From Roseimicrobium gellanilyticum (GTDB lineage: Bacteria; Verrucomicrobiota; Verrucomicrobiia; Verrucomicrobiales; Verrucomicrobiaceae), in assembly GCF_003315205.1 (NCBI RefSeq), contig NZ_QNRR01000004.1, forward strand, positions 186,001 to 250,000: 64,000 nt of DNA, read 5' to 3'. Below, one piece after another: positions 3,439 to 48,957 of this stretch. The position numbers and the translations under genes are program-made. The notes under the pieces are model-generated. The model searched no databases, had not been told where the DNA came from, and worked only from the letters and a program-made list of their open reading frames with translations. Each line of letters starts with the position of its first letter. Within the stretch, counting starts at the first letter, position 1.

Positions 3439-3452
3439 GCTTGCCGGCAGAC

Positions 3453-6079: not shown

Positions 6080-6083
6080 GGAC

Positions 6084-6238
6084 GGTGGTCCGCACTCCTG
6101 GTGGTCCGCCCACTCCGTGTGCGGTCAGGGGGGCTGTTCTCGATTTCCCGCAAGCTTTCGGGTGGTGCGAAGTGCTTGGGTGTGTTGACTTCTTCCATGC
6201 TTTTGAGCCTGCACCCGCGCACGGAGTGCGCGGACCAC
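6084..6238. repeat. Palindromic repeat family A, copies 1 and 2
   Basis: Two copies, at about 6099-6128 and 6214-6238, plus a partial copy at 6084-6098. The consensus is an imperfect palindrome in which CCGCACA pairs with TGTGCGG around a CGGAG-type centre. They lie between convergent genes and could form transcription-limiting hairpins. Other copies are at 6648, 6752 and 10456. Confidence 0.7.
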
Positions 6239-6239
6239 A

Positions 6240-6629: not shown

Positions 6630-6647
6630 TCGAGGCGGTTTGCCCTG

Positions 6648-6674
6648 GGTGGTCCGCACACTCCGTTGTGCGGG
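6648..6674. repeat. Palindromic repeat family A, copy 3
   Basis: GGTCCGCACACTCCGTTGTG followed by CGG; an inverted copy of the consensus just upstream of the small membrane protein gene. Confidence 0.7.
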
Positions 6675-6751
6675 TGAGGTGAAAACATCCACCAGCACAC
6701 TACCGCGTTGGCATCTACCGAAGGCAAGAAACTCAAGGGGCCGCTCCAGCC

Positions 6752-6777
6752 TGACCGCACAACGGAGTGTGCGGACC
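6752..6777. repeat. Palindromic repeat family A, copy 4
   Basis: The sequence TGACCGCACAACGGAGTGTG is followed by CGGACC. It is in opposite orientation to copy 3, about 75 bp away, so the two can also pair with each other. It lies just past the stop of the thioredoxin-like gene and could serve as a terminator stem. Confidence 0.7.
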
Positions 6778-6786
6778 TCCCTTTCC

Positions 6787-7377
6787 TCACTTCATCCCAC
6801 TGATCTTGCAGCCCATCGCCTCGGTCTTCGCATGGGCCACGGGCTTGCCTTCTTGAATGGCGTCGAGGGCATCGCGCAGATCCTTGGTCGTGGCCTGACG
6901 CTGTCGCTTGGTGGGGCCGAGATAGAGGTCATTCACGCGGCCCTGGTAGACGGTGGTCTTGCCATCGGGGGCGAGGACAGCGACTTCGGGCGTGATCTTT
7001 GCCTGGACGAGTTTGGCCAGTTTTTGTTCCTTATCGAGCAGCACGGTGGCTTTGATCTCGTTCATTTCGGTGTGTTGCAGGACGTCGGTGAGTTTCACGT
7101 CTGGATCCGCATGCACGAAGTAGAAGGCGAACTTGCCGCTGTAGTCTGCCACGATGCGGTTTAGCTCAGGGACGAAGTTGTTCGACGTGGGGCAGTAGGG
7201 AGAGACAAAGCAGAGCACAGCAGCCTTCTTCTCCGCAGGCACTACGAGAGGCGTGTGTTCTTTGCCATCGGCTCCCGGGAACAGCAGCGCATCTGGAGCC
7301 TGTGCGGATGCGGCCAGAGGAAGATGAGCGAAGACCAAGGCGAGAAACAGAGAGGTCGTGCGGGCAAGGCTTGGCAT
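6787..7377 (-). CDS. Secreted thioredoxin-fold (redoxin-like) protein
   Basis: 196 residues from ATG 7377, which opens a signal peptide (SLFLALVFAHLPLAASA). The thioredoxin-fold core has the block LCFVSPYCPTSNNFVPELNRI, giving a single Cys where thioredoxins have CxxC, followed by Thr-Ser. The C-terminus ends EAMGCKISGMK, a Cys-containing tail also seen in redoxin-like proteins of planctomycetes. It may act in periplasmic thiol chemistry or heme-protein maturation; the lack of a CxxC argues against a classical disulfide reductase. Confidence 0.8.
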   Translation of the reverse strand: MPSLARTTSLFLALVFAHLPLAASAQAPDALLFPGADGKEHTPLVVPAEKKAAVLCFVSPYCPTSNNFVPELNRIVADYSGKFAFYFVHADPDVKLTDVLQHTEMNEIKATVLLDKEQKLAKLVQAKITPEVAVLAPDGKTTVYQGRVNDLYLGPTKRQRQATTKDLRDALDAIQEGKPVAHAKTEAMGCKISGMK

Positions 7378-7440
7378 GGGAGGTGGATGGAAGATTGGAG
7401 GGTGAAAGAGTGGGTGGGGAAGGGAACTGCGCAAGTGGCG

Positions 7441-8721
7441 TCAGGTTTGCACGGGCTTTTGCAAGGAGACCGCAGGGACGGTGGTGGGAATGGAGGGCAG
7501 TGTCACGCGACAGGCCACAAGGCCGAGGAGGATGACGAGCGGTGTGAGGATGTAGAGAGCGGGTGCGTAGGAGCCGTATTTCTCATGGCACGTGGCGAAG
7601 AGCAGCGGTCCCACGGCAGAGGCCAGCACGGTGAGCATCTGTGCGGCACCTTGAATGCGGCCGAGCTGTGCCCGACCAAAGGCCTGGCTCCAAATGGCGA
7701 AGAAGATCACCGTGATGAATCCCGCGGCGAGTCCCAAGACACCCGCGAGCAACCAGAGCTGGGTGAGGGTACGGATGAAAGGCAGGCCCACCAGACCGAG
7801 CGCGTAGAGGAACATGGCCACCCCCAGCAGCACCGCCATGGGCCGACGCAGGGTGAGCCATCCACACAGCCCCTGACCCAGCAAAGTGAAGAGCGTCATG
7901 ATGGGCAGGAAGAGGTGATAGGTTTCCCGGTTGAATCCCGCCTCTGCCAGCACGGCTTCATTGAAGAGACCCAATCCTGATGCCGCGAGATTGAAGAGTG
8001 CAGTCGCACCCGCGAATACCCAAAACACCGGAGTCGCGAGCGCCTGTCCCAAGCTCAACCCCGTGACGGACTCCCGGGCTTCACCCGATGCGTTGCAAGC
8101 ATCCGCTGGGGCCTTCTTGATCGTCGGCTCGCGAAGCAGGAGCAACGTCAGTGGTGCCACCACCACCGCAAGGCTCAAGGCGATGGAGCTCCACGCGCTC
8201 CTCCAGCCATGCTCGCGGACTGCCCAGCCGACCGCCACGAAGCCGAGGGAGAAAAACACGATGATCAGCACCGAGTACACGCCCATGGCCATCCCCACGC
8301 GTGTGCCCGCACCCTTTCCCACGGTGGTGATGCTGGCGACAGAGAGTGCGCTTTGTCCAAACGCACGCGTGAGCAGCACCCACGTGAAAAGCACCATGAC
8401 GCTGCCCAAGTGACCGCTCATGCGCCAGACGACGAGCGCCAGGGCGAGTACGATGAGGGCTGACGTCCAGCGCAGTCCCACTCGATCGATGACCCAGCCC
8501 GCCGGCAGACACACGGCCGCGCCGAGCAGGGTGGCCCAGAGATTGATATTCGCGTATGTGATGCGGTCGAGCTGCAGGTCCGCAAGCATGGGCTCCGTGA
8601 TGAGTCCAAGTCCCTGTGTGCGCCCCGGGAGTGTCGCCAGCATGAGCAGGGCTGCGAGGATCACATTTCCCCAAAGGATGCGGCTGGAATACGAGTGGCT
8701 GGGGGGAGGGGGCTCGGACAT
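7441..8721 (-). CDS. MFS transporter
   Basis: 426 residues with about twelve hydrophobic segments. The loop after TM2 reads GWVIDRVGLRWTSAL, the usual MFS signature position (D-R-x-G-R-R type). A charged central loop (LREPTIKKAPADACNASGEA) divides the two halves. It is a proton- or sodium-coupled permease of the inner membrane; the substrate is not evident. The stop lies 63 bp upstream of the thioredoxin-like gene on the same strand, so the two could be cotranscribed. Confidence 0.85.
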   Translation of the reverse strand: MSEPPPPSHSYSSRILWGNVILAALLMLATLPGRTQGLGLITEPMLADLQLDRITYANINLWATLLGAAVCLPAGWVIDRVGLRWTSALIVLALALVVWRMSGHLGSVMVLFTWVLLTRAFGQSALSVASITTVGKGAGTRVGMAMGVYSVLIIVFFSLGFVAVGWAVREHGWRSAWSSIALSLAVVVAPLTLLLLREPTIKKAPADACNASGEARESVTGLSLGQALATPVFWVFAGATALFNLAASGLGLFNEAVLAEAGFNRETYHLFLPIMTLFTLLGQGLCGWLTLRRPMAVLLGVAMFLYALGLVGLPFIRTLTQLWLLAGVLGLAAGFITVIFFAIWSQAFGRAQLGRIQGAAQMLTVLASAVGPLLFATCHEKYGSYAPALYILTPLVILLGLVACRVTLPSIPTTVPAVSLQKPVQT

Positions 8722-9975: not shown

Positions 9976-10011
9976 ATCCCTGAAGCGAATTTGAGCGCCT
10001 TCAGGGATTCA
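9973..10011 (+). terminator. Strong hairpin at the stop codon
   Basis: TGAATCCCTGAAG pairs perfectly with CTTCAGGGATTCA (13 bp, 13-nt loop). The TGA stop codon is the first three bases of the stem. No T-run follows, so it may stabilise or pause rather than terminate classically. Confidence 0.6.
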
Positions 10012-10033
10012 GCCATCGTATCCTTCCGATGCG

Positions 10034-10378
10034 ATGAGCCGCCCGCCCACCGACTTTGAGATCCGAGTGTACGATCTCATTTCCACCATCCCAAAGGGGA
10101 AGGTGAGCACGTACGCACTCGTGGCCCGGGCGCTGGACTGTGGCTCGAATCAGGCCGTGGGGCAGGCGCTGAGGCGTAATCCCTTCGCTCCGCGCGTGCC
10201 GTGTCATCGGGTGGTGAGCGCTGCCCTCACGCTTGGCGGATTCAATGGCCATCGTGATGGCGATGAACTCGCGCGGAAGCGCCGCATGCTGGAGGAGGAG
10301 GGCGTGCGGTTCGACGCTCAGGGCCGGGTACATCCGGCGTGTATCCACGTCTTCCAGGAGTGGTGGCCCGCACCGTGA
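10034..10378 (+). CDS. MGMT-fold alkyltransferase domain protein
   Basis: 114 residues corresponding only to the C-terminal DNA-binding/active-site domain of O6-alkylguanine-DNA alkyltransferase. The winged-helix part contains GKVSTYALVARA, then the active-site motif VPCHRVV with Cys57, then GGFNG. Alkyltransferase-like (Atl) proteins of this size usually have Trp at the Cys position. Here the acceptor Cys is retained, so direct alkyl transfer remains possible. No N-terminal ribonuclease-like domain is encoded upstream. Confidence 0.85.
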   Translation: MSRPPTDFEIRVYDLISTIPKGKVSTYALVARALDCGSNQAVGQALRRNPFAPRVPCHRVVSAALTLGGFNGHRDGDELARKRRMLEEEGVRFDAQGRVHPACIHVFQEWWPAP

Positions 10379-35989: not shown

Positions 35990-38101
35990 ATGAAGGGCAT
36001 CACCAAACTCCTGACTTTCAAGCTGTCGCCAGTGCGACACGGGGTGATGCTCGCCAGTTGTTTGGCGGTTGGCCTCAGTGGGAGCTTGAGGGGGGAAGCT
36101 CAGGAACTCGTCATTCCCGCCTCGGCATCGGTGGCTGCTACCGCGCCGTCTGCGGCGTCGGCCCAAGCTCCAGCGCCGGATTCCCCGGCTGCGATTGCCC
36201 CCGCCACCGCGGCTGCGGCACCGAGCCCGGCGGCTGCTCCTTCTCCCGCTCTCGTGCAGACGCCCGCGACCAAGCCTGCTCAAGCGCAGGATGAAGAATT
36301 TGTCCTGCAATCCGCCACTCTCGTCATGGGACCCAAGGCCGAGCCCCGCCGTGTGCGCCAGCCAGTGCATGAGTACTTTACCGTCTTCGATCCACAGGCA
36401 GGCGGCAGGCAGAGCATTGAGCAGAAGGTGAACCCTTTCGTGGCCTACACCAACTTGGGCACGGACTTCGGCTTCATCGGAACCGGTCAGGAAGGCATCG
36501 GGTATGAAACGGGCATGGTGAGCATCACCATGCCACCGGACAAGTGGGGTGGCATGTGGCACAGCCTCGCGGGCCTCGGCAGTGATCTGGACTACGTGCT
36601 GGACTTCCGCGCCTGCTATCCGCCGTACATCGCGGCGAGGTATCAACCCAAGGTGGTGGGCCTGGAACTGCGTGCCAAGGGGAAGGGGACCTTCAAGGTG
36701 GAGATCAAAGGCGCCGACCAGAAGACACTGTGGGAGAAAGTGTTCGTCGTGGACTCGCCGGACATGCGCACCTTTGTGGAGGCGCTGAATGCCGAGGAGA
36801 TTGGCCATGCGAAATTCTTGAACTGGGTGGCTGAGGGGGGCGCGGACGGCCTGCTGGACTCCGTGGCGTTCATTCTGGAGACACCGGCGATTCCCTTCGA
36901 TGAATACGTCTTCCTCGCGAGCTATGCGAAGCTGGCCCGCTGCTTCAGCATGCGCACCGCCTATGTGAAGGACCGCGCGCACATCCGCGATGGCTACTTC
37001 GACAATGTGCCGGCGTGCGGCCTCTTTGCCCTGGGTACGGCGCTCGCTGCGAAGCGCGGCATGGTGAGTGACCGCTTTGCCGAGGATCTGGCGGAGCGTA
37101 TCGAGGATAATATCTCCCATCTCGACACGGCACGCGGTCTGCTGCCGCACTTTGTGAAGCGGCACCAGGATGGACGCTACGGCATTCTGCCTGGCACAGA
37201 GTACAGCACGGTGGACACGGCCATCTACTACCACAGCATGCTGCTGGCGGCAGAGATCCTGGGCCACACGGAACTGAAGGCGCGGATCACGGCGGCGGTC
37301 CGCTCCATAGGACTGGATGACATCATGCTGGATTCCGAGGGGTATGTGCGCCATGGCGTGCGCGAGGACAAGGTGACACCACTGCGCGCTGTGTGGCGCG
37401 ACTGGGGTGGTGAGACCGCGCTGGTGCTGGCCATGGGCGCCATGAATGCGAAGCCGCCGCCCTTCCGCATGGCCTCCAGTGGCCGGGTGTATGATGGCAC
37501 CGGTTTCATTGCGGAGATCCAGAGCCTTTTCTATCCGGACTTCGATGATCCCACGCCGGACTCGCTGACGAAGCAGAACTGGCCTGCCGCACGCAAGACA
37601 CTGCTGCAGCGGCAGAAGGAGTATTTCCCCAAGAACTGGCCGGACAGCGAGGCTGCGCATCGGGGCTTTTACGGCCTCTCTGCCGGTGAGGCGCGCCGCG
37701 GCATGGGCTATCTGGTCGCGGGTGTGGAGCTGACCGGCATGTCCGTGATACATCCGCACTACGTGCTCATGTCCGCCTCCAGCGCGGAGAATTCGGCCGA
37801 GGTGTATGATGTGCTGCGTCGCATGGAGGAGTCCCACCTCTTTCCCCCGTGGGGTATGGTGGAGCACTTCACGAAGGATGTGGATGAATACCTGCCCATG
37901 CTCGGTGCGCTGAATGCGAGCTTCGAGTGTATCAGCTCCTATCATCTCATGATGCGCAGTCGTGGCACCAAGGATGAGCTTTATGATGCCTGCCTGCGCA
38001 ATGCGGACCTGCGGAAGGGTGCGAGCATCTTCTACCCCTCATCCTCAGGAGTCACTTCCTTCGCCGAGAGCAACCTGGGCAGTCCATCAGGCGAGCCGTA
38101 G
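35990..38101 (+). CDS. Secreted helical-toroid (glucoamylase/GH144-like) protein
   Basis: 703 residues. ATG 35990 has AGGA 7 nt upstream and opens a signal peptide ending near GEAQE. An Ala/Pro/Ser linker (about 40-100) follows. A beta-rich region comes next (about 110-285). From about 300 is an alpha-helical domain with DTARGLLPHFVKRHQDGRYG, ILPGTEYSTVDTAIYYHSML, GLSAGEARRGMGYLVAG and PPWGMVEHFTKDV. These are spaced like the (alpha/alpha)6 barrel of GH144/DUF3131-type glucan hydrolases. Probably periplasmic or extracellular polysaccharide processing. Its last 70 bp overlap a convergent Trm112-like gene. Confidence 0.78.
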   Translation: MKGITKLLTFKLSPVRHGVMLASCLAVGLSGSLRGEAQELVIPASASVAATAPSAASAQAPAPDSPAAIAPATAAAAPSPAAAPSPALVQTPATKPAQAQDEEFVLQSATLVMGPKAEPRRVRQPVHEYFTVFDPQAGGRQSIEQKVNPFVAYTNLGTDFGFIGTGQEGIGYETGMVSITMPPDKWGGMWHSLAGLGSDLDYVLDFRACYPPYIAARYQPKVVGLELRAKGKGTFKVEIKGADQKTLWEKVFVVDSPDMRTFVEALNAEEIGHAKFLNWVAEGGADGLLDSVAFILETPAIPFDEYVFLASYAKLARCFSMRTAYVKDRAHIRDGYFDNVPACGLFALGTALAAKRGMVSDRFAEDLAERIEDNISHLDTARGLLPHFVKRHQDGRYGILPGTEYSTVDTAIYYHSMLLAAEILGHTELKARITAAVRSIGLDDIMLDSEGYVRHGVREDKVTPLRAVWRDWGGETALVLAMGAMNAKPPPFRMASSGRVYDGTGFIAEIQSLFYPDFDDPTPDSLTKQNWPAARKTLLQRQKEYFPKNWPDSEAAHRGFYGLSAGEARRGMGYLVAGVELTGMSVIHPHYVLMSASSAENSAEVYDVLRRMEESHLFPPWGMVEHFTKDVDEYLPMLGALNASFECISSYHLMMRSRGTKDELYDACLRNADLRKGASIFYPSSSGVTSFAESNLGSPSGEP

Positions 38102-38244
38102 ATGTGCGTGCCATCTTGCGAGACGAGCGCATCCTCGCTTTCCGGGATGCCATGCGCCTTCTTCTCCTCCGCCGTGGCCGCACGCAGCGGCTGCTTCGTG
38201 GCAGGGCAACGGAGCAGGGCGAGGACTTCAGGCGGCGTGGGCAT
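38032..38244 (-). CDS. Trm112 family protein
   Basis: 70 residues starting MPTPPEVLALLRCPATKQPL and ending near DGLPRLLSAKEVTPEDEG. The start EVLALLRCPATKQPLR and the later IYGSPDGLPRLL are the bacterial Trm112 (YcaR-like) signature; in most, two CxxC-like pairs bind zinc, here only one Cys is clear. Trm112 proteins activate methyltransferases or act as small chaperones. The 3' end overlaps the convergent toroid-protein gene by 70 bp, and both frames look authentic. Confidence 0.8.
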   Translation of the reverse strand: MPTPPEVLALLRCPATKQPLRAATAEEKKAHGIPESEDALVSQDGTHIYGSPDGLPRLLSAKEVTPEDEG

Positions 38245-38309
38245 GGGTGCGGAGGATGGGGGAACAAGGTGTAACGCAAAGCAGCGAACCAGCAAGAGAA
38301 CTGATGGAG

Positions 38310-38366
38310 GGTAGGCCGGAAGGCCTGACCTCCGATGGGTTCCTCTGCTGCTTGGCTGCTTTGCGT
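38310..38366. repeat. Repeat family B hairpin and adjoining GCTGCTTTGCG motif
   Basis: GTAGGCCGGAAGGCCTGACC forms a short hairpin. TCTGCTGCTTGGCTGCTTTG at 38342 resembles motifs near 46176-46198 (inverted) and 60440-60480, 60664-60705. Confidence 0.6.
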
Positions 38367-38431
38367 TAAAAACCTCGCCCTGAGCCTTCATTCCATGATC
38401 CCCTTTTGCATCCGCGCGACGGTCCGATACA

Positions 38432-40321
38432 ATGGGCCCAATGGAAATTGCCGCCCAGTACCGTGCGCTGAAGAAGGAAGGCCGTCTGCAGGAGGCGCTG
38501 CTGCTGGCTCGGCGGGAGATGGCCTCGCTGGAGCCAAATGCGATTTCACAGCTTGGGAAGATGCTGCAGAGGGATCTGTGCACGGGGAGGCAGGACTCGG
38601 CTGAGATTGCGACGGGTGCCTCCACGGTAAAGCCCTTGCGAGTCTTCGTCGCAGGGCAGTGCACCACCACGTATCTGCTGCCCATGCTCGTGGCATGGGC
38701 GTGGGCGGATGGCATGCATGTGCAGGTGAGTGATGCGGAGTACGATCAGGTGGTACAGTCGCTCATGGCTCTGAAGGTGGAGGATGCGCCCGATGTCATT
38801 GTGGTGCTCCCGTGGAACCAGCGGTTGCTTGCGCATGATTCGCGCAGTTCGGCGCAGCGCATTGAGGACGAGGTGGCGTTTCTCCAGCAGTGCTGGGCGC
38901 AGGTGGCGCGGCTGAAGTGCAAACTCGTGCAGGTGTCCTATGACTGGATGGGCGTGGGTGCGCTGGGGTATGGCCTCTCCTCACGGCATGATCACGAGGG
39001 GGATGTGTCCCTCATCCAGCGCGTGAATGCCTCCCTGCGTGCAGCCCTGCCGGCGGGCACGTATCTGGTGGACCTGAAGCATATCAGCTCCTGGCATGGG
39101 AAGTCACGCTTCTACGACGAGCGGAACTATCACTGGCTGAAGCAGCCTTTCTCACCGGAAGGGCTCTCCGTGATGGCACGGCATATCGCAGCAGGCATCC
39201 GCGTGCTCACCGCCGGGCGCAAGAAGGTGCTCGTGCTCGATCTCGATAACACCCTGTGGGGCGGCGTGGTGGGTGAACTGGGCGCGCATGGCGTTGCGAC
39301 CGCCGCAGGCTCGACCGAGGGCGAGGCGTTCCTCGCGTTTCAAAAACATGTGAAGCAGCTCCGGAAGTCCGGCGTGCTGCTCGCGGTGTGCTCGAAGAAT
39401 AACGACGCGGATGCGCGCGAGCCTTTTGAGAAGAATCCGCACATCGTACTGCGCATGGAGGACTTTGCGGCCTTCCACGCTTCCTGGGATACGAAGCCGG
39501 AGCGCCTGCGCCAGATCGCACTCGAGCTGAACCTGGGGCTGGATAGCTTCGTCTTCTTCGATGACAATCCGGTGGAGCGCGCGCATGTGCGTGCGGAACT
39601 GCCGGAGGTGCTGGTGCCTGAAGTGCCTGCGGATCCCTCTCTGTATGTGCGTGTGCTGCAGGAGACGCTCGCGTTTGAAGCGGTGGGACTCACGAGCGCG
39701 GATGCAGAGCGCGCGGCGCAGTACACAGCAGAGAACTCGCGGAAGCAGTCTCTGGGCGTCGCGGCCTCGCCGGAGGAGTATCTCGCTTCCTTGGAAATGG
39801 GCGCAGAGATCCTACCCATCAGTGCGGAGAACATCGATCGTGTGGTGGACCTCATCACGAAGACGAACCAGTTCAACCTCACCACGCGCAGGCATTCGCG
39901 CGCGAAGGTGGAGGAGATGGCGGGCACGCCGGGTGCGGTGTGCTTTGCCGTGCAACTGGCCGACAGATTCGGCGATTACGGCATCATCTCCGTGGTGCTC
40001 TCTGTGCCGGATGAAGACTCTACCGCAGGAGAAGCGCTACGCCTTGATACCTGGCTCATGAGCTGCCGCGCCATGGGTCGCACCGTGGAGCACCTGGTGA
40101 TGAATCACCTCGTGGAGCGTGCCACTGCGGCCGGATATGTGCAGCTGCTGGGCGAGTACCTGCCCACGCCGAAGAATACGCCAGTAAAGGCGCTGCTCCC
40201 GGGCTTCGGATTCCACACGGATGCGGCGGCGGGTCGTGGAGAAAGCTGGCACTCTTTGAGCTTGACTACGGCCCCGGTCCAGAGCACGCAAGTCCGTCTC
40301 CTGATCACGGAGAACGCCTGA
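38432..40321 (+). CDS. FkbH-like HAD-superfamily acyl-activating protein
   Basis: 629 residues, a long-form FkbH protein. The N-terminal region (about 68-255) is SGNH-like with VFVAGQCTTTYL where relatives have a Ser. The HAD domain carries the DxD pair Asp270/Asp272 in LVLDLDNTLWGG, VCSKNNDADA and FFDDNPVERAHVRAELPEV. The C-terminal part (about 455-600) is GNAT-like. FkbH enzymes move glyceryl or related C3 units from 1,3-bisphosphoglycerate onto acyl carrier proteins. No ACP gene is adjacent. With MBOAT and SGNH genes after it, a role in making or delivering acyl groups for glycan O-acylation is likely. ATG 38441 is an alternative start. Confidence 0.88.
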   Translation: MGPMEIAAQYRALKKEGRLQEALLLARREMASLEPNAISQLGKMLQRDLCTGRQDSAEIATGASTVKPLRVFVAGQCTTTYLLPMLVAWAWADGMHVQVSDAEYDQVVQSLMALKVEDAPDVIVVLPWNQRLLAHDSRSSAQRIEDEVAFLQQCWAQVARLKCKLVQVSYDWMGVGALGYGLSSRHDHEGDVSLIQRVNASLRAALPAGTYLVDLKHISSWHGKSRFYDERNYHWLKQPFSPEGLSVMARHIAAGIRVLTAGRKKVLVLDLDNTLWGGVVGELGAHGVATAAGSTEGEAFLAFQKHVKQLRKSGVLLAVCSKNNDADAREPFEKNPHIVLRMEDFAAFHASWDTKPERLRQIALELNLGLDSFVFFDDNPVERAHVRAELPEVLVPEVPADPSLYVRVLQETLAFEAVGLTSADAERAAQYTAENSRKQSLGVAASPEEYLASLEMGAEILPISAENIDRVVDLITKTNQFNLTTRRHSRAKVEEMAGTPGAVCFAVQLADRFGDYGIISVVLSVPDEDSTAGEALRLDTWLMSCRAMGRTVEHLVMNHLVERATAAGYVQLLGEYLPTPKNTPVKALLPGFGFHTDAAAGRGESWHSLSLTTAPVQSTQVRLLITENA

Positions 40322-40518
40322 CGCAACCTTTTGCTCATGACGCCAGTCATCACCACACTCGCACCCCCGTGAAGACGCGGGCGCCGCAGAAAGACCGCGG
40401 TGCCCGGCTCCATGATAGGTACAGCCTGCCCTGAAGAAGGGGCCGGCTGGTGTGAGTCATCCCCGCCATGCCGGGGAGTTAGTGAGTGTGAATGTGCCTT
40501 CGCTGACCGTGCTGCGTC

Positions 40519-41982
40519 ATGCTGTTCAATTCGTTCGACTACGTTCTCTTTTTCCCGCTCGTCTTCGCCTTGTACTGGGCGGTGCCGTTTCGCGCGCAGC
40601 AGGCGCTGCTGCTGGTGGCGAGCTATCTCTTCTATGGATGGTGGGGCTTCTTTGAGCCCAAGCTGAGCGGTTGGGAGAAGGTGCTGCCTCTGGTGCTGCT
40701 CGCAGTCTCCACCATCTTCACGCATGTGTGTGCGAAGGCGGTGTATGCGCTGCCGGAGGAGTCGAGGCGGAGACGCATCTGGTTCTGGATAGGTGTGGCG
40801 GCGAATATCGGGATGCTCGGCTACTTCAAATACCGCGGCTTCTTCCTGGAGAATGTGAATGCGCTGGGTGCGCAGTTTGGGTGGACCACCACGCCTGTGG
40901 TCATGCAATTCATCCTACCCGCGGGTATCAGCTTCTACACGTTTCAAGGTCTCTCGTATCTGATCGATGTCGATGGCGGCTCGCAGAAGCCAGCGGAGAA
41001 GGTGTGGGACTTCGCGCTCTTCCACGCGTTCTTCCCGCAGCTCGTGGCAGGCCCGATTGAACGCAGCCGCAATCTGCTGCCGCAGCTCACGGCACCGCGT
41101 ACGCTCACGCCCGAGCAGCTCTGGAGCGGGCTGCAGCTCATCATCATTGGCTATGTGAAGAAGGTGGCGATTGCCGATGCCATCGCGCCGATGACGCGTG
41201 AGGCCTTTTCGAATCCGGCCTCACAGACAGGTGTGGGGCTCATGCTGGCGCTGTATCTCTTTGCCCTGCAGATCTACGGCGATTTCTCCGGGTATAGTGA
41301 CATTGCCCGCGGCTGTGCACGCCTGCTCGGAGTGAATCTCATGGTGAACTTCCGCCAGCCATACTTCGCGCGGAACATCACCGAGTTCTGGGAGCGCTGG
41401 CACATCTCGCTCTCCACGTGGCTGAGGGACTATGTCTTCGTACCGCTATGCCGCCAGTTCCGCGGGAAGAAATGGCTCAACTTCAATCTCTTCCTCACCA
41501 TGCTCATCTCCGGCATCTGGCATGGGGCCTCGTGGAACTTCGTCATGTGGGGTGTGGTGCTGGGCCTCATGCTCGTGGCGCATAAGCTGTGGTCCGGGCC
41601 GAAGGCGAGCAAGCATCCACATCGCCCGAAGAATGCGCGTGAGTGGCTGGTGCAGGTCAGCGGCATGGTGCTCACCTTCCACTGCGTGTGCCTCACGCTC
41701 ATCTTCGTGAAGACGGCGTCACTCGCGCATGCGTGGGCATTCATCACCGGAATTTTCAGAGGCGGTGCCATCGCACCGGACATCATGGCGCTGTGGTATG
41801 TGGTCTTCTATGGGCTCGTAGTCCTCTTCCTCGACTTCCCCTGCTGGTGGCGGGATCGCGAGCTGCCTGTGGCGGACACGGCTTCACCGTGGAGACGTGG
41901 CGTGACCTATGGTGGACTGCTGTTGCTGCTGGCTTTCCTTGGCGAGATGGAAGGGGTGTCGTTTGTGTATTTCCAGTTTTGA
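40519..41982 (+). CDS. MBOAT family O-acyltransferase (AlgI/DltB-like)
   Basis: 487 residues with about ten hydrophobic segments. The catalytic His is His335 in SGIWHGASWNFV, and a second conserved His is His295 in FWERWHISLSTWLRDYVFVPL. The N-terminus LFNSFDYVLFFPLVFALYW is the usual start of this group. AlgI-type proteins carry acyl groups across the inner membrane for O-acylation of exopolysaccharide or cell-wall glycans. It is 197 bp downstream of the FkbH-like gene and 325 bp upstream of an SGNH-like gene, the normal order for such loci. Confidence 0.93.
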   Translation: MLFNSFDYVLFFPLVFALYWAVPFRAQQALLLVASYLFYGWWGFFEPKLSGWEKVLPLVLLAVSTIFTHVCAKAVYALPEESRRRRIWFWIGVAANIGMLGYFKYRGFFLENVNALGAQFGWTTTPVVMQFILPAGISFYTFQGLSYLIDVDGGSQKPAEKVWDFALFHAFFPQLVAGPIERSRNLLPQLTAPRTLTPEQLWSGLQLIIIGYVKKVAIADAIAPMTREAFSNPASQTGVGLMLALYLFALQIYGDFSGYSDIARGCARLLGVNLMVNFRQPYFARNITEFWERWHISLSTWLRDYVFVPLCRQFRGKKWLNFNLFLTMLISGIWHGASWNFVMWGVVLGLMLVAHKLWSGPKASKHPHRPKNAREWLVQVSGMVLTFHCVCLTLIFVKTASLAHAWAFITGIFRGGAIAPDIMALWYVVFYGLVVLFLDFPCWWRDRELPVADTASPWRRGVTYGGLLLLLAFLGEMEGVSFVYFQF

Positions 41983-42307
41983 GGACGCCTGCTTCACTTT
42001 CATGGTCACCTTTGCTCAGCCGAATGCAGTCTAGTCTCCACACAGCACGACGCTCCCACAAAAACGATGCGGTAGGGATGCGCTCCTGCGCGTCCGTAGA
42101 TGGCGGGCGGAGGCGGTGCGCATCTATGGCGTTGCAGGGTGTTTTGCATCGCAGCACTCCTCCTCCGCCCACATTATTGAGGGACGCGCAGGAGCGCATT
42201 TCTACCGTCCATTTTTTAGAGAATGGTGAGCGCCGCAGATGCGCGAAATTACGGCGCTTCCTTTCTGAACACGGGCTTCTTTTTATTCGCATTGGATCCA
42301 ACTGCTG
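41983..42307. other. Intergenic region of about 325 bp with an inverted-repeat element
   Basis: The inverted repeat at 42071-42206 occupies the middle. No gene is visible. If the MBOAT and SGNH genes are cotranscribed, the message would contain a large hairpin here. Confidence 0.55.
42071..42206. repeat. 136-bp element with 25-bp inverted ends
   Basis: The left arm GGTAGGGATGCGCTCCTGCG plus CGTCC matches the reverse complement of the right arm at 42182-42206 with two mismatches. An inner pair (GGCGGGCGGAGG against CCTCCTCCGCCC) extends the hairpin. Confidence 0.7.
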
Positions 42308-43384
42308 ATGACTCCTGATACATCATCTTCCACGACCCCAATTCCCTTCCGCATCCACCGCTGGTTCGGCAAATCTGCGTGGATCACACTCGCAGTCTTC
42401 ATCCTGGGACGACTCGCGCTGGAGCCCCTTCGCGCACTCCCCATGTATGACATCCGGGGCATGGATGCGTATGGAGCGGTGGAGAATTTCCAACTCCGCA
42501 AGCAGGACACGCCGGTGAAGATTGGCTTCTTTGGCACGAGCCAGAGTGTGTGGGGGGTGATCTCAGATGAAGCCGCACGCATGTGGGGCGTGCCTGAGAG
42601 GGAGGTGCGGAATCTCTCCATCGAAGGTGGCACGCCGTTTGGTATGTGGTCCTTAATCCGGCGCAATGAGGAACTGCTCTCCGGGCTGCGCGTGGCCATT
42701 GTGGAGGTGAATCCCTTTGTCTTGCGCCAGAGCCTGGATGCGGACCAGCGCGTGCGGGCGAATCTGGCCCAGCATGCCACGCTCTATGAACGCATCCAAG
42801 TGCGCCCGCGCAGTGAACGCATGGGCCACCTGGTGGAGTGGCTGCTCCCGGTGCGCTCGGTGCGGCGCTCGCTCTACACGGCGACGTTGAATGTCATCGA
42901 TCCGGCGCCGGGGAATCCCATTTATCCCTGGCCGGAGAAACGGGTCACTCCCATGGCGGACTGGAAGGCGGAGAACGCGATGGCGCACACGGAAAAAGGG
43001 CGCAAGCTCATCGCCCCCGAGCTCGCGGCGAAGCGGGTGCTGGGACATTGGAAGCTCTCTGCCTTGCAGGATCATGCCTTCCGCAAAAGCCTGGAGTGGT
43101 TCCACGCGCATGGCGTGAAGGTGATCTTCCACGAGCTACCGGTGCACCCGGAGGTGTACGCGGCGATGCATGACGACCCGGACTTCCGAAGCGGAAATGC
43201 GGCCTTCCTCCGCTATGTGGACTCCTTGAAGCCCGCTCCCGTCGCGTGCATCCTCACGCCGAATCCTGCCATGTGCCGCCTCGCTGCGGAACACATGGCC
43301 GACCGCACGCACTGCAATGAACTCGGCGCGCGCATCTATTCACGCTACCTCGCGGAAAAGCTGAAGTGGGATGTGGTGGAGTAG
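42308..43384 (+). CDS. Membrane-anchored SGNH-like protein, AlgJ/AlgX-type partner of the MBOAT protein
   Basis: 358 residues with one N-terminal transmembrane helix (SAWITLAVFILGRLAL, about 24-39). The external domain begins with IGFFGTSQSVWGVISDEAARMWG, a G-x-S nucleophile block of the SGNH type. RTHCNELGARIYSRYL near the C-terminus could hold the catalytic His, preceded by an Asp. Proteins like this receive the acyl group from the MBOAT partner and place it on a glycan, or deacylate it. Convergent with the next gene, 6 bp between stops. Confidence 0.78.
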   Translation: MTPDTSSSTTPIPFRIHRWFGKSAWITLAVFILGRLALEPLRALPMYDIRGMDAYGAVENFQLRKQDTPVKIGFFGTSQSVWGVISDEAARMWGVPEREVRNLSIEGGTPFGMWSLIRRNEELLSGLRVAIVEVNPFVLRQSLDADQRVRANLAQHATLYERIQVRPRSERMGHLVEWLLPVRSVRRSLYTATLNVIDPAPGNPIYPWPEKRVTPMADWKAENAMAHTEKGRKLIAPELAAKRVLGHWKLSALQDHAFRKSLEWFHAHGVKVIFHELPVHPEVYAAMHDDPDFRSGNAAFLRYVDSLKPAPVACILTPNPAMCRLAAEHMADRTHCNELGARIYSRYLAEKLKWDVVE

Positions 43385-43390
43385 CGACCG

Positions 43391-43849
43391 TCACCTCAAG
43401 GCGAGCGATCTCATCAGGGGGTAGTCGATGACCCCGGTGACGGGAAGTCCATACCGCACCTGGTAGCGACGAATGGCGCTGCGGCTTTGCGGACCGATGA
43501 TTCCATCGATATTGCCGTAGTAGTAGCCTCTTCGTGCCAATGCAATCTGCACGTCGGAGGCCAGCGTGGGCCGGTTGTAGTAGGAGTAGCTGACGGCGGG
43601 CCGGTAGTACGGGCGGTAACCGTATCCATAACCATAGCCGTACGGCTCATAGTATGCAGGTCGATAGTAGGCCGGACGGAAGAGCGGGTACGACCAGAAC
43701 AGCCCCGGGCTGAAGCCAATGGCCCAGCTTGATCCGCCGTGGTAATGTCCGCCACCGTAGCAGCCGCCGCGATGACCGGCCTGAAGTGGGGAATAACTTG
43801 TGATCAGAGCCAGCGCTACTCCGACCGATAGTGAAAGGATTCGTTTCAT
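43391..43849 (-). CDS. Secreted peptidoglycan-binding-domain protein with Tyr/Gly/Pro-rich region
   Basis: 152 residues. ATG 43849 is preceded by GGGAGG at good spacing, one of the few clear Shine-Dalgarno sites here. A signal peptide (1-25) is followed by a His/Gly-rich part and a low-complexity Tyr region (RPAYYRPAYYEPYGYGYGYG). A C-terminal PG_binding_1 domain (about 95-152) has LASDVQIALARRGYYYGNIDG, IIGPQSRSAIRRYQ and LPVTGVIDYPLM. It probably binds peptidoglycan in the periplasm. Similar short proteins occur widely and their function is unknown. Confidence 0.85.
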   Translation of the reverse strand: MKRILSLSVGVALALITSYSPLQAGHRGGCYGGGHYHGGSSWAIGFSPGLFWSYPLFRPAYYRPAYYEPYGYGYGYGYRPYYRPAVSYSYYNRPTLASDVQIALARRGYYYGNIDGIIGPQSRSAIRRYQVRYGLPVTGVIDYPLMRSLALR

Positions 43850-44103
43850 GGCATCCTCCCTTGTCCTTGAAGTCAGGTGTTTTTTGACCCGCTTAAGCAG
43901 GTCCTGTTCAAGGGAAGGTCGGGGCGTTGCGGCGGTGCGCAAGCCCTTTTTCCCAGCTCCGAGCATGGCGCTCAGGCACAGGAAATTGGCGGGTGCGTGA
44001 GGTATGCATGGGTTCGTGTGTCGCTTCGCGACTGAGCTTCTCAGGTTTAGCCGGCACCGTCACTTGTGCCTTCGCCCCTGTTGCCTGGCGCTTTCATCGT
44101 TCT

Positions 44104-44790
44104 TCACTTACCCACGTTCGCCTTCAGCACGAGGGCGGAGCTGTCGGGGAGGAACTCGACGGCGCCGACGTGCTTCAGCACTTCGGCCACGTCCGTGTTG
44201 TTCTTGGAGACAGCGAGCCAGGGGATGGTTTGCAACTGGCCGATGAAGCCGGGGCTCACGGTCTTGCCGGGGACTTCCACGGTATCGAGATACACATCGA
44301 AGTTTCCGCCATCCACTCTTGGCAGGAAGCTGGCACTCCCTACGAGGAAGCGATCTGGGGCCTTGCTGAGGGGGAGGTTGTTCATCTGCCATCGGATGTT
44401 CGCCAGAAGGCGGCCAGCCTTGCCATCCATCGCCGTGAAATGCACCACGTTGCGATAGTCGTAGTCGCCAATCTTCTTTTCCCCGGCGAGCGCGATCACT
44501 TGATTCAGGTCTTCGAGCGAGAGCGTGAGGGTGGCGGGCTTGTCTTTCTTCGCCTCTTCGCTGAAGGCATCGATCTTCTTCTGCAACGCCTCGCGTGTGG
44601 CATCGGTGAGCACGCTGGCCGCCAGGGAGGGGGCATCATGCACGGTGAAGGAGGCAATTTCCTTGTCCTGCTTGTACCCGCTGTAGAGCATCCATCCCAC
44701 AATGCCACCGAACGTGAGCGCGGCGATGATCATGATGGCGCATCCGTAAAAGGGATTCGAGCCGCTGACGGGTTCTTTGACGACGGACAT
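44104..44790 (-). CDS. Membrane-anchored protein of unknown function
   Basis: 228 residues from ATG 44790. One transmembrane helix (AIMIIAALTFGGIVGWML, about 18-35) precedes an external domain that alternates helix and strand. No motif that I recognise. The mature part includes LTLSLEDLNQVIALAGEKKIGDYDY, a phrase suggesting a lipid- or ligand-binding barrel, but this is speculative. Two heptanucleotide arrays lie just upstream of the gene. Confidence 0.65.
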   Translation of the reverse strand: MSVVKEPVSGSNPFYGCAIMIIAALTFGGIVGWMLYSGYKQDKEIASFTVHDAPSLAASVLTDATREALQKKIDAFSEEAKKDKPATLTLSLEDLNQVIALAGEKKIGDYDYRNVVHFTAMDGKAGRLLANIRWQMNNLPLSKAPDRFLVGSASFLPRVDGGNFDVYLDTVEVPGKTVSPGFIGQLQTIPWLAVSKNNTDVAEVLKHVGAVEFLPDSSALVLKANVGK

Positions 44791-45053: not shown

Positions 45054-45818
45054 TTATGCAGCAAACCCACCATCCGCGAGCAAACTCGCACCCGTGATGT
45101 AGCTGGCTTCCGGGCTCGCGAGGAAGGCAACGAAGTTCGCAATCTCCTCTGTATGTCCATAACGCTGGAGGGCCAGGAGAGGGATGAGCGTTTTGGCGAA
45201 ATCCGTGTCCGCAGGATTCATGTCCGTGTCGATTGGGCCGGGCTGCACATTGTTCACCGTGATGCCACGAGCACCGAGGTCACGGGCTGCGCCTTTGGTG
45301 AAGCCTTCGAGGGCAGACTTGCTCATCGCGTAGACGGAGCCACCGAGGAAAGGCATGCGGTCGCTGTTCGTGCTGCCGATGTGGATGATGCGGCCATGGT
45401 CCCGCATGTGGCGCGCGGCTTCTTGCGTGGCGATGAAAACGCCGCGCACATTGACGCCGATGACCTTTTCGAAGTCGGCCATCGCAAACTCCGTGATGGG
45501 TGCCATGGCAGCGACGCCAGCGTTGTTGACGAGGATGTCGAGGCGGCCAAACGCACCAACGGTCTTCGCGACGGAGAGGCGCACGGCTTCTTCATTCGCG
45601 GCATCGGCCTGGATGGCGATGGCTTTGCCACCTGCCGCTTCGATGTCCTTCACCACGGCATCTGCCTTGTCTGGTGAGGAGGTGTAGGTGATGGCAACGC
45701 TCGCACCATCAGCCGCGAGGCGTTTCGCAATCGCCGCGCCGATGCTGCGGGAGCCGCCAGTGACAAGAGCGACCTTGCCGGTGAGTTTCTTGGTAGTGAT
45801 ATTCGTGTTCGTGCTCAT
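45054..45818 (-). CDS. Short-chain dehydrogenase/reductase, FabG-like
   Basis: 254 residues from ATG 45818. The NADP-binding motif is TGGSRSIGAAIAKRLAADG, followed by VNNAGVAA, the catalytic Ser in IIHIGSTNSDRM and Tyr/Lys in YAMSKSALEGFTKG. The ending FLASPEASYITGASLLADGG is typical of SDRs. Substrate unknown. It belongs to a cluster of three SDR genes on this strand but is separated from the next one by repeats and a terminator. Confidence 0.92.
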   Translation of the reverse strand: MSTNTNITTKKLTGKVALVTGGSRSIGAAIAKRLAADGASVAITYTSSPDKADAVVKDIEAAGGKAIAIQADAANEEAVRLSVAKTVGAFGRLDILVNNAGVAAMAPITEFAMADFEKVIGVNVRGVFIATQEAARHMRDHGRIIHIGSTNSDRMPFLGGSVYAMSKSALEGFTKGAARDLGARGITVNNVQPGPIDTDMNPADTDFAKTLIPLLALQRYGHTEEIANFVAFLASPEASYITGASLLADGGFAA

Positions 45819-45935
45819 GATGTTCTTTCTTGTTTCTCCTGTCTTGGCATTGAAACAGAGGTAACCGCGAAGCTGGAATCGGCCCAATACCATGATCCTT
45901 GGGCAGCCATGCTTTTCAGGTATGGCTCATAAAAG

Positions 45936-46279: not shown

Positions 46280-47041
46280 TCACAAGAACATCCCGCCCGA
46301 CGCCTCAAGCCGCTGCGCGTTTACCCAGCGCCCTTCTTCGGAGCAGAGGAAGCTCACCACGCCGCCGATGTCATCCGGCACGCCGACGCGACCGAGGGCG
46401 GTGTTTGCACTGAGGATGTCGCGCATGCCGGGGTGGGAAAGCGCTTCCTTCGTGAAGTCCGTCTCAATGGCACCGGGAGCCACGGCGTTCACGTTGATGC
46501 GGCGCTTGCCGAGTTCCTTCGCGAGGTAGCGAGTGAGCACTTCAATCGCGCCCTTCATGGAGGCATAGGCGGCATAGCCGGGGATGCTGAAGCGGGCGAG
46601 ACCAGTGGAGGTATTCACAATGCGTCCGCCATCCGCAATCAAGGGAAGCAGGCGCTGGGTGAGGAAGAAGACGCCCTTGAAGTGCACGTTCATGAGGCTG
46701 TCGAATTGGTCCTCCGTGGTCTCGGCGAAGGGTGCGGCGATGTCGATGCCGGCGTTGTTCACCAGAAAGTCGAAGGTGTCACGCTGCCAGTTGGATTGCA
46801 GCGTTTCCTTCAGCGTGGTGGCGAAGGCTTCAAACGTCTTCGTCAGCGAGGTGTCGATCTGCAATGCCACGGCCTTGCGGCCGAGCGAGGTGATTTCCGC
46901 CACGACGGCGTCGCCTTCCTCCTTGCCCTTGCGGTAGGTGACGATGACGTCTGCTCCGGAGCGGGCGAGCTGCAGGGCGATATTCCTGCCCAGGCCACGG
47001 CTGCTTCCGGTGACGAGGGCGATTTTGTTCTCGTGTTTCAT
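46280..47041 (-). CDS. Short-chain dehydrogenase/reductase
   Basis: 253 residues. The cofactor motif is TGSSRGLGRNIALQLARSG, then VNNAGIDI, the Ser in RIVNTSTGLARFS, and YAAYASMKGAIEVLTRYLA with the Tyr-x3-Lys pair. It ends FLCSEEGRWVNAQRLEASGG, a standard SDR tail. It is 59 bp downstream of the third SDR gene and probably shares its promoter. The natural substrate is not evident. Confidence 0.92.
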   Translation of the reverse strand: MKHENKIALVTGSSRGLGRNIALQLARSGADVIVTYRKGKEEGDAVVAEITSLGRKAVALQIDTSLTKTFEAFATTLKETLQSNWQRDTFDFLVNNAGIDIAAPFAETTEDQFDSLMNVHFKGVFFLTQRLLPLIADGGRIVNTSTGLARFSIPGYAAYASMKGAIEVLTRYLAKELGKRRINVNAVAPGAIETDFTKEALSHPGMRDILSANTALGRVGVPDDIGGVVSFLCSEEGRWVNAQRLEASGGMFL

Positions 47042-47100: not shown

Positions 47101-47841
47101 TTACTGATTGCCAGCGGTGGGACGCACGATGATTTCATTCACGTCCACATCGGCGGGCTGCTCGATGGCATAGGCCATGGCGCGGGCGATGGAGTCGGGC
47201 GTGAGAGCGACCTTGCGGAAGTCATCAATCGCTTCGCGTGTGGCCGGGTCGGAGATGGTGTGGGCGAGTTCCGACTCCACCACGCCGGGGGAGATGACGG
47301 TGACACGCACATCCTTGTTCTCCAGCCGGAGGCCTTCGGAGATGGCGAGCACGGCGAACTTCGTGCCGCAGTACACCGCACAGGTGGGCCACACCTGGTG
47401 CCCACCGATGGAGGATACATTGATGATCTGGCCGGACTTGTGCTCACGCATGTGGGGCAGCACGGAGGCGATGCCGTGGAGCACGCCGCGGATGTTCACG
47501 TCGATCATCTGGTTCCACTCGCTGATCTTCAGCTCATGCATGGGGGAGAGGGGCATGACGCCGGCGTTGTTGATGAGGACGTCGATGCGGCCAAAGGTCT
47601 CGAGCGCATAGTCCGCGAAGGATTGCACGCTGGCGAGGTCGGCCACGTCGAGAGCCTTGTACTCGGCGGTGCCACCTGCTTCGCGAATCTCGGCGACCAG
47701 CTTCTCCAGGCGGTCGGTGCGGCGTGCACCGAGGAGCAGCTTCCCACCCCGGGCGGCGAGATGGCGGGCGGTGGCTTCACCGATGCCACTGCTGGCGCCA
47801 GTGATGAGGATGACTTTGTTTTCAATGGAGATGGTGTTCAT
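47101..47841 (-). CDS. Short-chain dehydrogenase/reductase
   Basis: 246 residues from ATG 47841. The motif is TGASSGIGEATARHLAARG, with INNAGVMPLSP, the Ser in IINVSSIGGHQ and Tyr/Lys in YCGTKFAVLAISEGLR. It ends VDVNEIIVRPTAGNQ, the form of many oxidoreductases of the YdfG/YdaD type. First gene of the two-gene SDR operon and divergent from an AraC-type regulator. Confidence 0.92.
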   Translation of the reverse strand: MNTISIENKVILITGASSGIGEATARHLAARGGKLLLGARRTDRLEKLVAEIREAGGTAEYKALDVADLASVQSFADYALETFGRIDVLINNAGVMPLSPMHELKISEWNQMIDVNIRGVLHGIASVLPHMREHKSGQIINVSSIGGHQVWPTCAVYCGTKFAVLAISEGLRLENKDVRVTVISPGVVESELAHTISDPATREAIDDFRKVALTPDSIARAMAYAIEQPADVDVNEIIVRPTAGNQ

Positions 47842-48015
47842 AAGAGATGGGGCTTTCAGCGGTGAAGGGTGAATTCCCTTCCGAACCGACGCTGACACCT
47901 GTAGCTCCACTGGCGAAAAAGCGCCATACACAGACCTCCAGAAGACTTGCCTGATTCTCCGGGAATGGGGAAAAGGGTTGTGGGGAAGGTGGGTGTGGTG
48001 TTGCCTAATCCTGGA

Positions 48016-48957
48016 ATGAAACAAAAGAGTCAACCTCGCCTCTCCCGTCCCGCGCCGCCCCCGCCGCCAGCGTATCCCCGCATGGTTTCCTTGCTCTCGG
48101 AACTGGCGCAGGGAGAGGGCTTCTGTGCGTCACGGCTGCCGGGAGTGCGGTTCATGCGCGCCCCACGGCATGTGCCTCGCAGTCCCATCGCGTATGAGCC
48201 GGGCATCTTCATCGTGTGCCAGGGGAGGAAGATGGGTTACTTGGGGGGACGCACCTTTGTTTATGATGCGAACCACTATCTTGTATTATCCGTGCCGTTG
48301 CCTTTCGAGTGCGAGACGGAAGGAAGCGAGGAGGAACCCCTGCTGGGCATTTCTATCAGTGTGACACCAGCGATGGTGACGGAGTTGCTCATGCAGATGG
48401 GCACCGCGCAGCCATTGAACGGTCCGCGTCCGCAGGCGATTGAGAGCACGGCGGTGGATGAGGGACTGGCGAGCGCCACGATGCGCCTGCTGGAGGCGCT
48501 GACGAGTGTGGAGGAGGCTCGCATCCTGGGGCCGCAGATTGTGCGTGAGATCACGTATCGTGTGCTGCAGGGGAAACTGGGGCACAACCTGCGCGCGCTC
48601 TCCGCGCCGCACAGCCACTTTGGGCAAATCAGTCGTGTGCTGCAGCGCATGCATACGGAGTATGCGGAGACCTATGAAGTGGAGGAGCTTGCTCGCGAGG
48701 CTGGGATGAGTGTCTCCACCTTCCACGCACACTTCAAGGCGGTGACCTCCTCCTCGCCGCTGCAATATGTGAAGAATGTGAAGCTGCACAAGGCTCGCAT
48801 GCTCATGGTGCACGAAGGCGCGAGCGCTGGCGCGGCTGCCGCGGAGGTGGGGTATGAGAGCGTCTCGCAGTTCAGCCGTGAGTTTAAGCGGCTCTTCGGC
48901 GCGGGCCCTGCGGCCGAGGCAAAGCAGTGGCGCGGGACGCTGATGCGGTTTGCGTGA
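48016..48957 (+). CDS. AraC family transcriptional regulator
   Basis: 313 residues from ATG 48016. The N-terminal cupin-like effector domain of the AraC_N type spans about 20-190 (FIVCQGRKMGYLGGRTFVYDANHYLVLSVPLPFE as one block, ISVTPAMVTELL). The C-terminal pair of helix-turn-helix motifs lies at about 210-310 (VEELAREAGMSVSTFHAHFK, AAAEVGYESVSQFSREFKRLFG). It probably controls the divergent SDR operon; this group often regulates SDR or aldo-keto reductase genes. TTG/ATG codons up to 23 residues upstream are also possible. Confidence 0.92.
   Translation: MKQKSQPRLSRPAPPPPPAYPRMVSLLSELAQGEGFCASRLPGVRFMRAPRHVPRSPIAYEPGIFIVCQGRKMGYLGGRTFVYDANHYLVLSVPLPFECETEGSEEEPLLGISISVTPAMVTELLMQMGTAQPLNGPRPQAIESTAVDEGLASATMRLLEALTSVEEARILGPQIVREITYRVLQGKLGHNLRALSAPHSHFGQISRVLQRMHTEYAETYEVEELAREAGMSVSTFHAHFKAVTSSSPLQYVKNVKLHKARMLMVHEGASAGAAAAEVGYESVSQFSREFKRLFGAGPAAEAKQWRGTLMRFA

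Follow-up and report, generated by a model that had tools for sequence, protein, structure and literature searches.

A probable Dlt-like envelope acylation locus with an FkbH-like loader and a separated carrier protein gene in Roseimicrobium gellanilyticum

Background

What does an FkbH-like gene do beside the genes of an MBOAT acyltransferase and an SGNH protein, with no acyl carrier protein (ACP) gene next to it? The question is raised by a locus at positions 38432-43384 of a 64,000-nucleotide stretch of the Roseimicrobium gellanilyticum genome (phylum Verrucomicrobiota; contig NZ_QNRR01000004.1, positions 186,001 to 250,000 of the forward strand), hereafter the window. FkbH relatives have been proposed to transfer glyceryl from 1,3-bisphosphoglycerate to an ACP (PMC7489565, in the part of the paper available), and a sequence-only reading of the locus had suggested that an unusual acyl unit is moved here to an external glycan. 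The enzyme types encoded fit such a transfer, with glyceryl as the best guess for the unit. We propose, at a probability of about 0.68, that the locus encodes three of the four components of a Dlt-like pathway for envelope acylation, in which the FkbH-like protein is the loader and of which the carrier gene has been separated in this genus. The proposal builds on the gene content of the locus and the conservation of that content, on purifying selection acting on all four genes, on catalytic residues and a motif that are conserved, and on a carrier protein encoded in trans, in addition to the predicted folds of the FkbH-like and SGNH proteins.

The locus and its conservation

The three genes are present as the sequence-only reading had described them, all on the plus strand, and family matches were obtained for the first two. 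The three encode an FkbH-like protein of 629 amino acids (38432-40321; TIGR01686, PDB entry 3slr and an AlphaFold model), a DltB-related MBOAT acyltransferase of 487 amino acids (40519-41982; PF03062, TIGR04091 and DltB, PDB entry 6bug) and an SGNH protein of 358 amino acids with an N-terminal hydrophobic helix and a predicted DltD-like fold (42308-43384; invariant residues and a structural model). The gaps between them measure 197 bp (FkbH to MBOAT) and 325 bp (MBOAT to SGNH), and no terminator-like site was found in either.

Among 57 genomes searched, comprising the window genome and its relatives, 18 had an FkbH match above the cut-off, and six carry the subfamily of the window protein: R. 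gellanilyticum itself (G000), its genus-mate (G001), and G002, G005, G012 and G018, with scores of at least 819.8 bits in the five besides G000 (in the handles used below, C denotes a contig and L a fetched locus). MBOAT and SGNH genes lie near FkbH in all six, with two SGNH copies in G002, G012 and G018, and the grouping of the three genes is thus conserved wherever the subfamily was found. Between G000 and G001, the ratios of nonsynonymous to synonymous substitution rates (dN/dS) are 0.09 for FkbH, 0.07 for MBOAT, 0.10 for SGNH and 0.06 for the ACP described next, as under purifying selection.

A carrier protein encoded in trans

The earlier claim that the system is without an ACP holds for the window locus but not for the genome. 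An ACP hidden in the two gaps or upstream of FkbH was considered and rejected, as no ACP-like open reading frame (ORF) was seen by eye in the small-ORF listing of the gaps or in a six-frame reading of the upstream region. The relatives place the missing gene: a 78-residue ACP is encoded directly upstream of FkbH in G002, G005, G012 and G018, and none in G000 and G001. In G005, the order is ACP, FkbH (overlapping by 4 bp), MBOAT and SGNH, followed by an unclassified 666-residue ORF. With the G005 ACP as query, a single strong match was obtained in each of the two remaining genomes, at G000:C12:23239-23472 (71% identity, E 2.9e-31) and at G001:C1:3194098-3194331 (68%), the latter about 676 kb from FkbH in a one-contig genome. 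Since 11 of the 12 other FkbH loci fetched from the same family have an ACP no more than 1.5 kb from FkbH, the split state of this genus is most simply taken as derived.

The attachment serine of the C12 protein, Ser36 in the motif WDSVQH, stands in a WDSV stretch in which it is invariant in four aligned relatives. Its score against PF00550 is 19.6 bits, with a gathering cut-off of 20.8; it was not among the matches of a PF00550 search of G000 at 0.01 and came to light with the relatives' ACP as query. In the PDB, its profile is matched best by 2lml, a 'putative acyl carrier protein' (E 1.1e-25, positions 1-76), which we take to be GmACP3 of Geobacter metallireducens. The window-type ACP shares with GmACP3 the WDSxxH motif, and no link to FkbH appears in the parts of the GmACP3 literature that were covered.

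It would be conceivable that this ACP is not the partner, and that FkbH loads the housekeeping AcpP or coenzyme A (CoA) instead. The gene does lie on a separate contig, flanked by a TetR gene on one side and the gene of a 2-oxoacid dehydrogenase E2 on the other, with no other match to the FkbH system in the 20 kb fetched there. Set against this, it is orthologous to the ACP upstream of FkbH in the four relatives, it is the sole ACP of its subfamily found in G000 and is under purifying selection, and the E2 gene of the same four relatives has no ACP within up to 1.5 kb on each side. We regard loading of AcpP or CoA as very improbable and keep the C12 protein as the carrier of the proposed pathway. 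The case also illustrates that the reading of a locus alone can miss a pathway member that has relocated.

Dispersed repeats were observed upstream of FkbH (window 38313-38372 and L043:3421-6276), where the relatives carry the ACP, with several copies at the G001 locus. These repeats are possibly traces of the rearrangement by which the ACP was lost from this site.

The FkbH-like protein as the proposed loader

The FkbH-like ORF, for which ATG at 38441 is a possible alternative start, matches TIGR01686 with 293 bits against a curated cut-off of 146.65 (E 2.6e-87, residues 264-595) and is the only FkbH match in G000. Its domain order is SGNH-like at the N-terminus, HAD with a DLDNT motif, and GNAT-like at the C-terminus. 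The sole sequence relative in the PDB at E 0.01 is 3slr, an 'uncharacterized protein BF1531' (1.8e-50), which is also the top fold match (E 9.2e-28) of an AlphaFold model of the whole protein (predicted local distance difference test, pLDDT, 86), followed lower down by many GNAT acetyltransferases.

In the HAD domain, D270 and D272 (codons of D270-L271-D272 at 39239-39247) are invariant in 28 of 28 and 24 of 24 aligned FkbH proteins, and the same holds for Cys545, located in an SCR motif of the GNAT-like domain (codon 40064-40066). Judged from the alignments, we propose Cys545 as the putative acyl-thioester site. A glyceryl thioester on the enzyme has reportedly been observed for OzmB, an FkbH-type enzyme, and Cys545 is the natural candidate for an intermediate of that kind. 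The glyceryl identity of the acyl unit is likewise suggested by analogy with the FkbH family.

The sequence-only reading had pointed to another cysteine, replacing the SGNH serine in the N-terminal part. This residue, Cys77 (GQCTTT; codon 38660-38662), is indeed present in the subfamily, but its position is not conserved across FkbH proteins: 29 aligned rows have C in 10, F in 7, S in 6, R in 2 (one gene in two Sinorhizobium meliloti strains) and T, H, Y and W in one each. Because this position varies while Cys545 is invariant in 28 of 28, Cys77 is no mark of special chemistry, and it was dismissed as a catalytic novelty. In S. meliloti strain 1021, FkbH is split into two overlapping frames (L066:7596-9658), while strain ml46 has a single frame (L065:7728-9680).

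The MBOAT acyltransferase and its shuttle motif

The window MBOAT matches PF03062 (2.1e-26) and, below the cut-off of 375 bits, the DltB equivalog TIGR04091 (193.2 bits, 7.7e-57), and DltB (6bug, 9.2e-42) is the sole PDB match of its profile at 0.001. The conserved MBOAT histidine, His335 in WHG (codon 41521-41523, plus strand), is invariant in 7 of 7 homologues; its role is taken from the available part of PMC12148441. According to the same source, bacterial MBOATs, like DltX, carry a C-terminal FXYXXF motif, and PatA acetylates the tyrosine of its own motif, with the acetyl-Tyr peptide acting as donor for PatB. The window protein ends with FVYFQF (41962-41979, plus strand), an instance of this motif, in which Tyr484 would be the acyl acceptor. 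Across the 7 aligned homologues, residues F482, Y484, F485, Q486 and F487 do not vary, and the second motif position does. No separate DltX microprotein was found on the plus strand of window positions 37001-44500, where no small frame has the motif apart from the C-terminal end of the MBOAT itself. A second MBOAT of G000 (G000:C1:299606-300288) is broken into two adjacent frames.

The SGNH protein

The third ORF has no family match in Pfam or NCBIfam at 0.1, including ALGX (PF16822) and PF04914, and a profile search of the PDB gave nothing at E 1. The catalytic set S78, G108, N135, D332 and H335 is invariant in 9 of 9 aligned homologues. In the fold comparison of a structural model (pLDDT 68), the top PDB match is DltD (7dxm, E 1.3e-3), with none at 0.001 or better; by Z-score, DltD 6o93 reaches 12.5 over 268 residues, E. 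coli thioesterase I 12.1 over a shorter stretch, and PatB 9.5. The sequence-only reading had called the protein AlgJ/X-like, for which the sequence gives no support, ALGX not being matched at 0.1; the top match of the predicted fold is DltD. AlgJ and AlgX chains are absent among the 50 fold matches listed, an absence that excludes nothing, and these matches indicate an SGNH fold but do not discriminate between SGNH subfamilies.

Proposed route and comparison with known systems

In the first step of the proposed pathway, FkbH would take a glyceryl unit from 1,3-bisphosphoglycerate, dephosphorylate it and hand it, by way of Cys545, to the thiol of the phosphopantetheine carried by Ser36 of the C12 ACP, so that FkbH and the ACP would stand in functionally for DltA and DltC. 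By homology, the MBOAT would then use His335 to move the unit from acyl-ACP at the cytoplasmic face to its own Tyr484. Finally, on the outer side of the membrane, Ser78 of the DltD-like SGNH protein would accept the unit from the acyl-Tyr, and the protein would esterify it to a hydroxyl of an envelope polymer.

The set shares with the Dlt system of teichoic acid D-alanylation (DltA, DltC, DltB, DltX and DltD) a carrier protein, an MBOAT, an SGNH protein and an acyl-Tyr shuttle motif. It differs in the loader, which is an FkbH (HAD and GNAT-like) rather than the ligase DltA, which forms adenosine monophosphate (AMP) and is absent from the window cassette, the part of G000 to which this statement refers; in the shuttle motif, which is fused to the MBOAT rather than carried on DltX; and in the host, which belongs to the Verrucomicrobiota and is not Gram-positive. 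An MBOAT with a C-terminal FXYXXF motif and a separate SGNH protein are also found in PatA/PatB, as in AlgI/AlgJ/AlgX and WssHI (PMC12148441, available part). Unlike PatA, which uses acetyl-CoA and needs no carrier protein, the window pair goes with FkbH and an ACP, and their presence argues for acyl-ACP over acyl-CoA as the MBOAT donor. The glycerate-utilisation genes of tetronate and methoxymalonyl polyketides consist of an FkbH-like enzyme and a stand-alone ACP; in contrast to those clusters, the partners in the window are MBOAT and SGNH, and the cassette shows neither a ketosynthase gene nor a FabH-like one.

If the pathway operates as proposed, FkbH acting on an ACP, with the energy coming from 1,3-bisphosphoglycerate, would be a third acyl supply for MBOAT-SGNH acylation, besides acyl-CoA and an AMP-ligase with carrier. 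It would also predict glycerate-type esters on the surface polymers of many bacteria, give a testable function to stand-alone WDSxxH carrier proteins of the GmACP3 type, and provide a gene set by which the missing enzymes could be sought where polysaccharides are known to bear glycerate esters. In the open-licence literature, no report of FkbH-loaded envelope acylation was found, nor anything linking glyceryl, acyl carrier protein, polysaccharide and O-acyltransferase. There, FkbH with MBOAT was met only in nonribosomal peptides (e.g. PMC13122637, as far as the sources were available), and glyceric acid, O-antigen and acyl carrier protein together led only to unrelated work.

A link to gellan was also considered. 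FkbH acting on 1,3-bisphosphoglycerate should yield the D form of glycerate. Gellan bears L-glycerate (PMC9104527, available part), and the link was set aside. Among the matches listed for gellan, no title concerned a glyceryl transferase gene (PMC4443731 and PMC9104527 included, in the parts available).

Occurrence in other bacteria

In an evenly sampled set of 387 genomes of the phylum, FkbH (match at 1e-20) occurs in 55 and the ACP (match at 1e-4) in 42, with both in 32 against 6.0 expected, FkbH only in 23 and the ACP only in 10 (Fisher p 2e-23, in a test that ignores phylogeny and has no correction for relatedness). An ACP lies within 1.5 kb of 26 of 50 free-standing FkbH places, compared with 0 of 8 in long open frames.

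A scan of a genome collection gave at least 590 FkbH loci, of which the best 80 were named and analysed; these share ancestry, and their hosts include Stutzerimonas, Paraburkholderia, Sphingomonas mali, Flavobacterium, Prevotella, Treponema, Desulfovibrio and Clostridium. An ACP was found within 1.5 kb of FkbH in 68 of the 80. MBOAT matches were obtained in 41, of which 28 end in F.Y..F and one in LMYGNF, and the remaining 12 are without the motif; in 26 of the 29 motif loci, the MBOAT lies on the FkbH strand. In 11 of the 12 motif-less cases, the cluster encodes a DltX-like single-helix microprotein that ends in [FVILA].Y..F and has a hydrophobic stretch (the twelfth, in L207, is a 141-residue fragment and was left out). 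These microproteins accompany short MBOATs and are located at L157:11363-11482, L161:4370-4474, L184:9006-9134, L186:9687-9818, L198:6352-6456, L202:10116-10253, L208:8696-8812, L213:6908-7033, L219 (within 9992-10219) and L229:2827-2952, and on the minus strand of L164, where MBOAT and microprotein are on the opposite strand from FkbH. Nine of them came from the first scan, while those of L208 and L219 emerged only in a search with a relaxed range; just 2 of the 11 begin the motif with F. Across both strands of the 80 loci (2.1 million strand-bases), 42 small frames with the motif were found, which manual sorting divided into the 29 MBOAT C-termini, the 11 microproteins and two unexplained frames. 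A microprotein with a short MBOAT is apparently a second architecture of the same pathway.

Taken together, an MBOAT with a Tyr shuttle motif, fused or on a microprotein, is present in 40 of the 80 named loci, a proportion that is not a frequency, the scan query having been an alignment of ten FkbH proteins from loci with MBOAT. The ACP lies within 1.5 kb of FkbH in 37 of these 40; in the other three, it is 3.2 kb away beside the MBOAT (L177), 2.3 kb away (L208), or not found even in a lenient scan (L185). Of ten proteins adjoining the MBOATs, seven match ALGX, GDSL or DUF1574 models (the last presumably SGNH-like), three of them over the cut-off, while two have no match and one is a nucleotidyltransferase; a crude motif scan for SGNH neighbours, finding 8 of 39, was not used. 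In an S. meliloti pSymB record, the annotated row is MBOAT, 'TonB-dependent receptor', acyl carrier protein and HAD hydrolase; the MBOAT ends in FLYQGF, and the adjoining 'TonB-dependent receptor' protein has no Pfam match.

A further genome of the phylum, G412, has an MBOAT ending in FIYFQF and a window-type ACP beside an AMP-binding ligase (PF00501, 4.8e-73), and its cluster encodes a weakly DltD-like protein (PF04914, 19.9 bits where the cut-off is 22.7). No FkbH was seen in the 16 kb fetched from G412, and the genome falls outside the 55 in which FkbH was matched at 1e-20. An AMP-ligase in the place of FkbH is as expected if FkbH does the job of DltA. A Dlt-like set of this make-up lies at L148 (MBOAT, ACP and AMP-binding ligase at 4465-8109; weakly DltD-like gene at 3317-4468), in the same phylum and with no FkbH nearby.

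Alternative explanations

These combinations bear on a different explanation, namely that the window genes serve two unrelated functions, with FkbH and the C12 ACP belonging to a polyketide or peptide pathway elsewhere and the MBOAT-SGNH pair O-acetylating a glycan from acetyl-CoA in the manner of PatAB or AlgI/AlgX. G000 does have carrier domains in large open frames of 1314-2565 amino acids, as polyketide synthases or nonribosomal peptide synthetases would give, many FkbH-ACP pairs occur without a nearby MBOAT, and MBOAT-SGNH pairs that use acetyl-CoA also bear FXYXXF (PMC12148441, available part). Yet an acetyl-CoA pair needs neither FkbH nor an ACP, and the triplet stays together in all six genomes with the subfamily, the association of FkbH, MBOAT and Tyr shuttle recurs across many phyla, mostly with the ACP close by, and in G412 an AMP-ligase stands beside the same types of MBOAT and ACP. 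We therefore consider two unrelated functions unlikely and maintain the Dlt-like pathway.

A second possibility, slightly less likely still, is that the route is the same Dlt-like one and the unit is not glyceryl but lactyl, another hydroxy-acyl or a tailored C3 group. In many FkbH-ACP loci, a Glyoxalase_4 (VOC) protein or a hydratase of the MaoC type is also encoded, frequently together with an SDR (coordinates recorded for VOC and MaoC clusters: L065:3801-4268, L137:7928-8326, L213:8281-8703, L131:5051-5926; L136:4372-4788, L161:5684-6845), and VOC and MaoC occur together only in L131. Such genes suggest tailored or epimerised acyl groups, and the family may handle more than plain glyceryl; the VOC protein is possibly an epimerase, which could convert D-glyceryl to the L form. 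In the window, three ORFs that look SDR-like by eye are located on the minus strand at 45054-45893, 46280-47041 and 47101-48033, at least 1.7 kb past the SGNH gene, and this row is also kept beyond the cassette of G001. Their position on the strand opposite to the cassette speaks against a role in it. Queries for VOC, MaoC and SDR gave no match around the window-type cassettes L033, L035, L039, L040, L043 and L151, in a scan in which some stretches end soon after SGNH and which did not extend to the window itself, and the fetched G005 contig shows only the four pathway genes ahead of its 666-residue ORF. Glyceryl thus remains the preferred unit of the proposed pathway.

Several observations weigh against the Dlt-like pathway as a whole. 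The window genes are loosely packed, with their 197- and 325-bp spacing; a gene of 541 amino acids, RF3-like by eye, intervenes between MBOAT and SGNH in G002, G012 and G018, and ORFs of 242 and 123 amino acids do so in G001. The MBOAT scores under the DltB equivalog cut-off and might take acetyl-CoA like PatA, and the match to DltD, at E 1.3e-3 on a model of pLDDT 68, is tied in Z-score with E. coli thioesterase I. Three of the 29 motif MBOATs are encoded on the strand opposite to FkbH; of the 52 named FkbH loci flanked by 4 kb or more on each side, 23 have no MBOAT, and within the fetched stretches only 7 of 13 FkbH loci of the home family have an MBOAT match. Because many FkbH-ACP pairs occur without an MBOAT, they serve other uses too, and a glyceryl-ACP pool could go elsewhere.

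We think it rather likely, if somewhat less so than the assignment of the window locus, that FkbH, a WDSxxH ACP, an MBOAT and an SGNH protein, with the shuttle fused or on a microprotein, constitute a widespread and unrecognised 'glyceryl-Dlt' class, in which the VOC or MaoC/SDR variants would export epimerised or tailored C3 acyl groups.

Other features of the locus

The gap between MBOAT and SGNH in the window also contains an imperfect inverted repeat (42070-42207) with 26-base arms of 92% identity, which resembles a palindromic repeat element.

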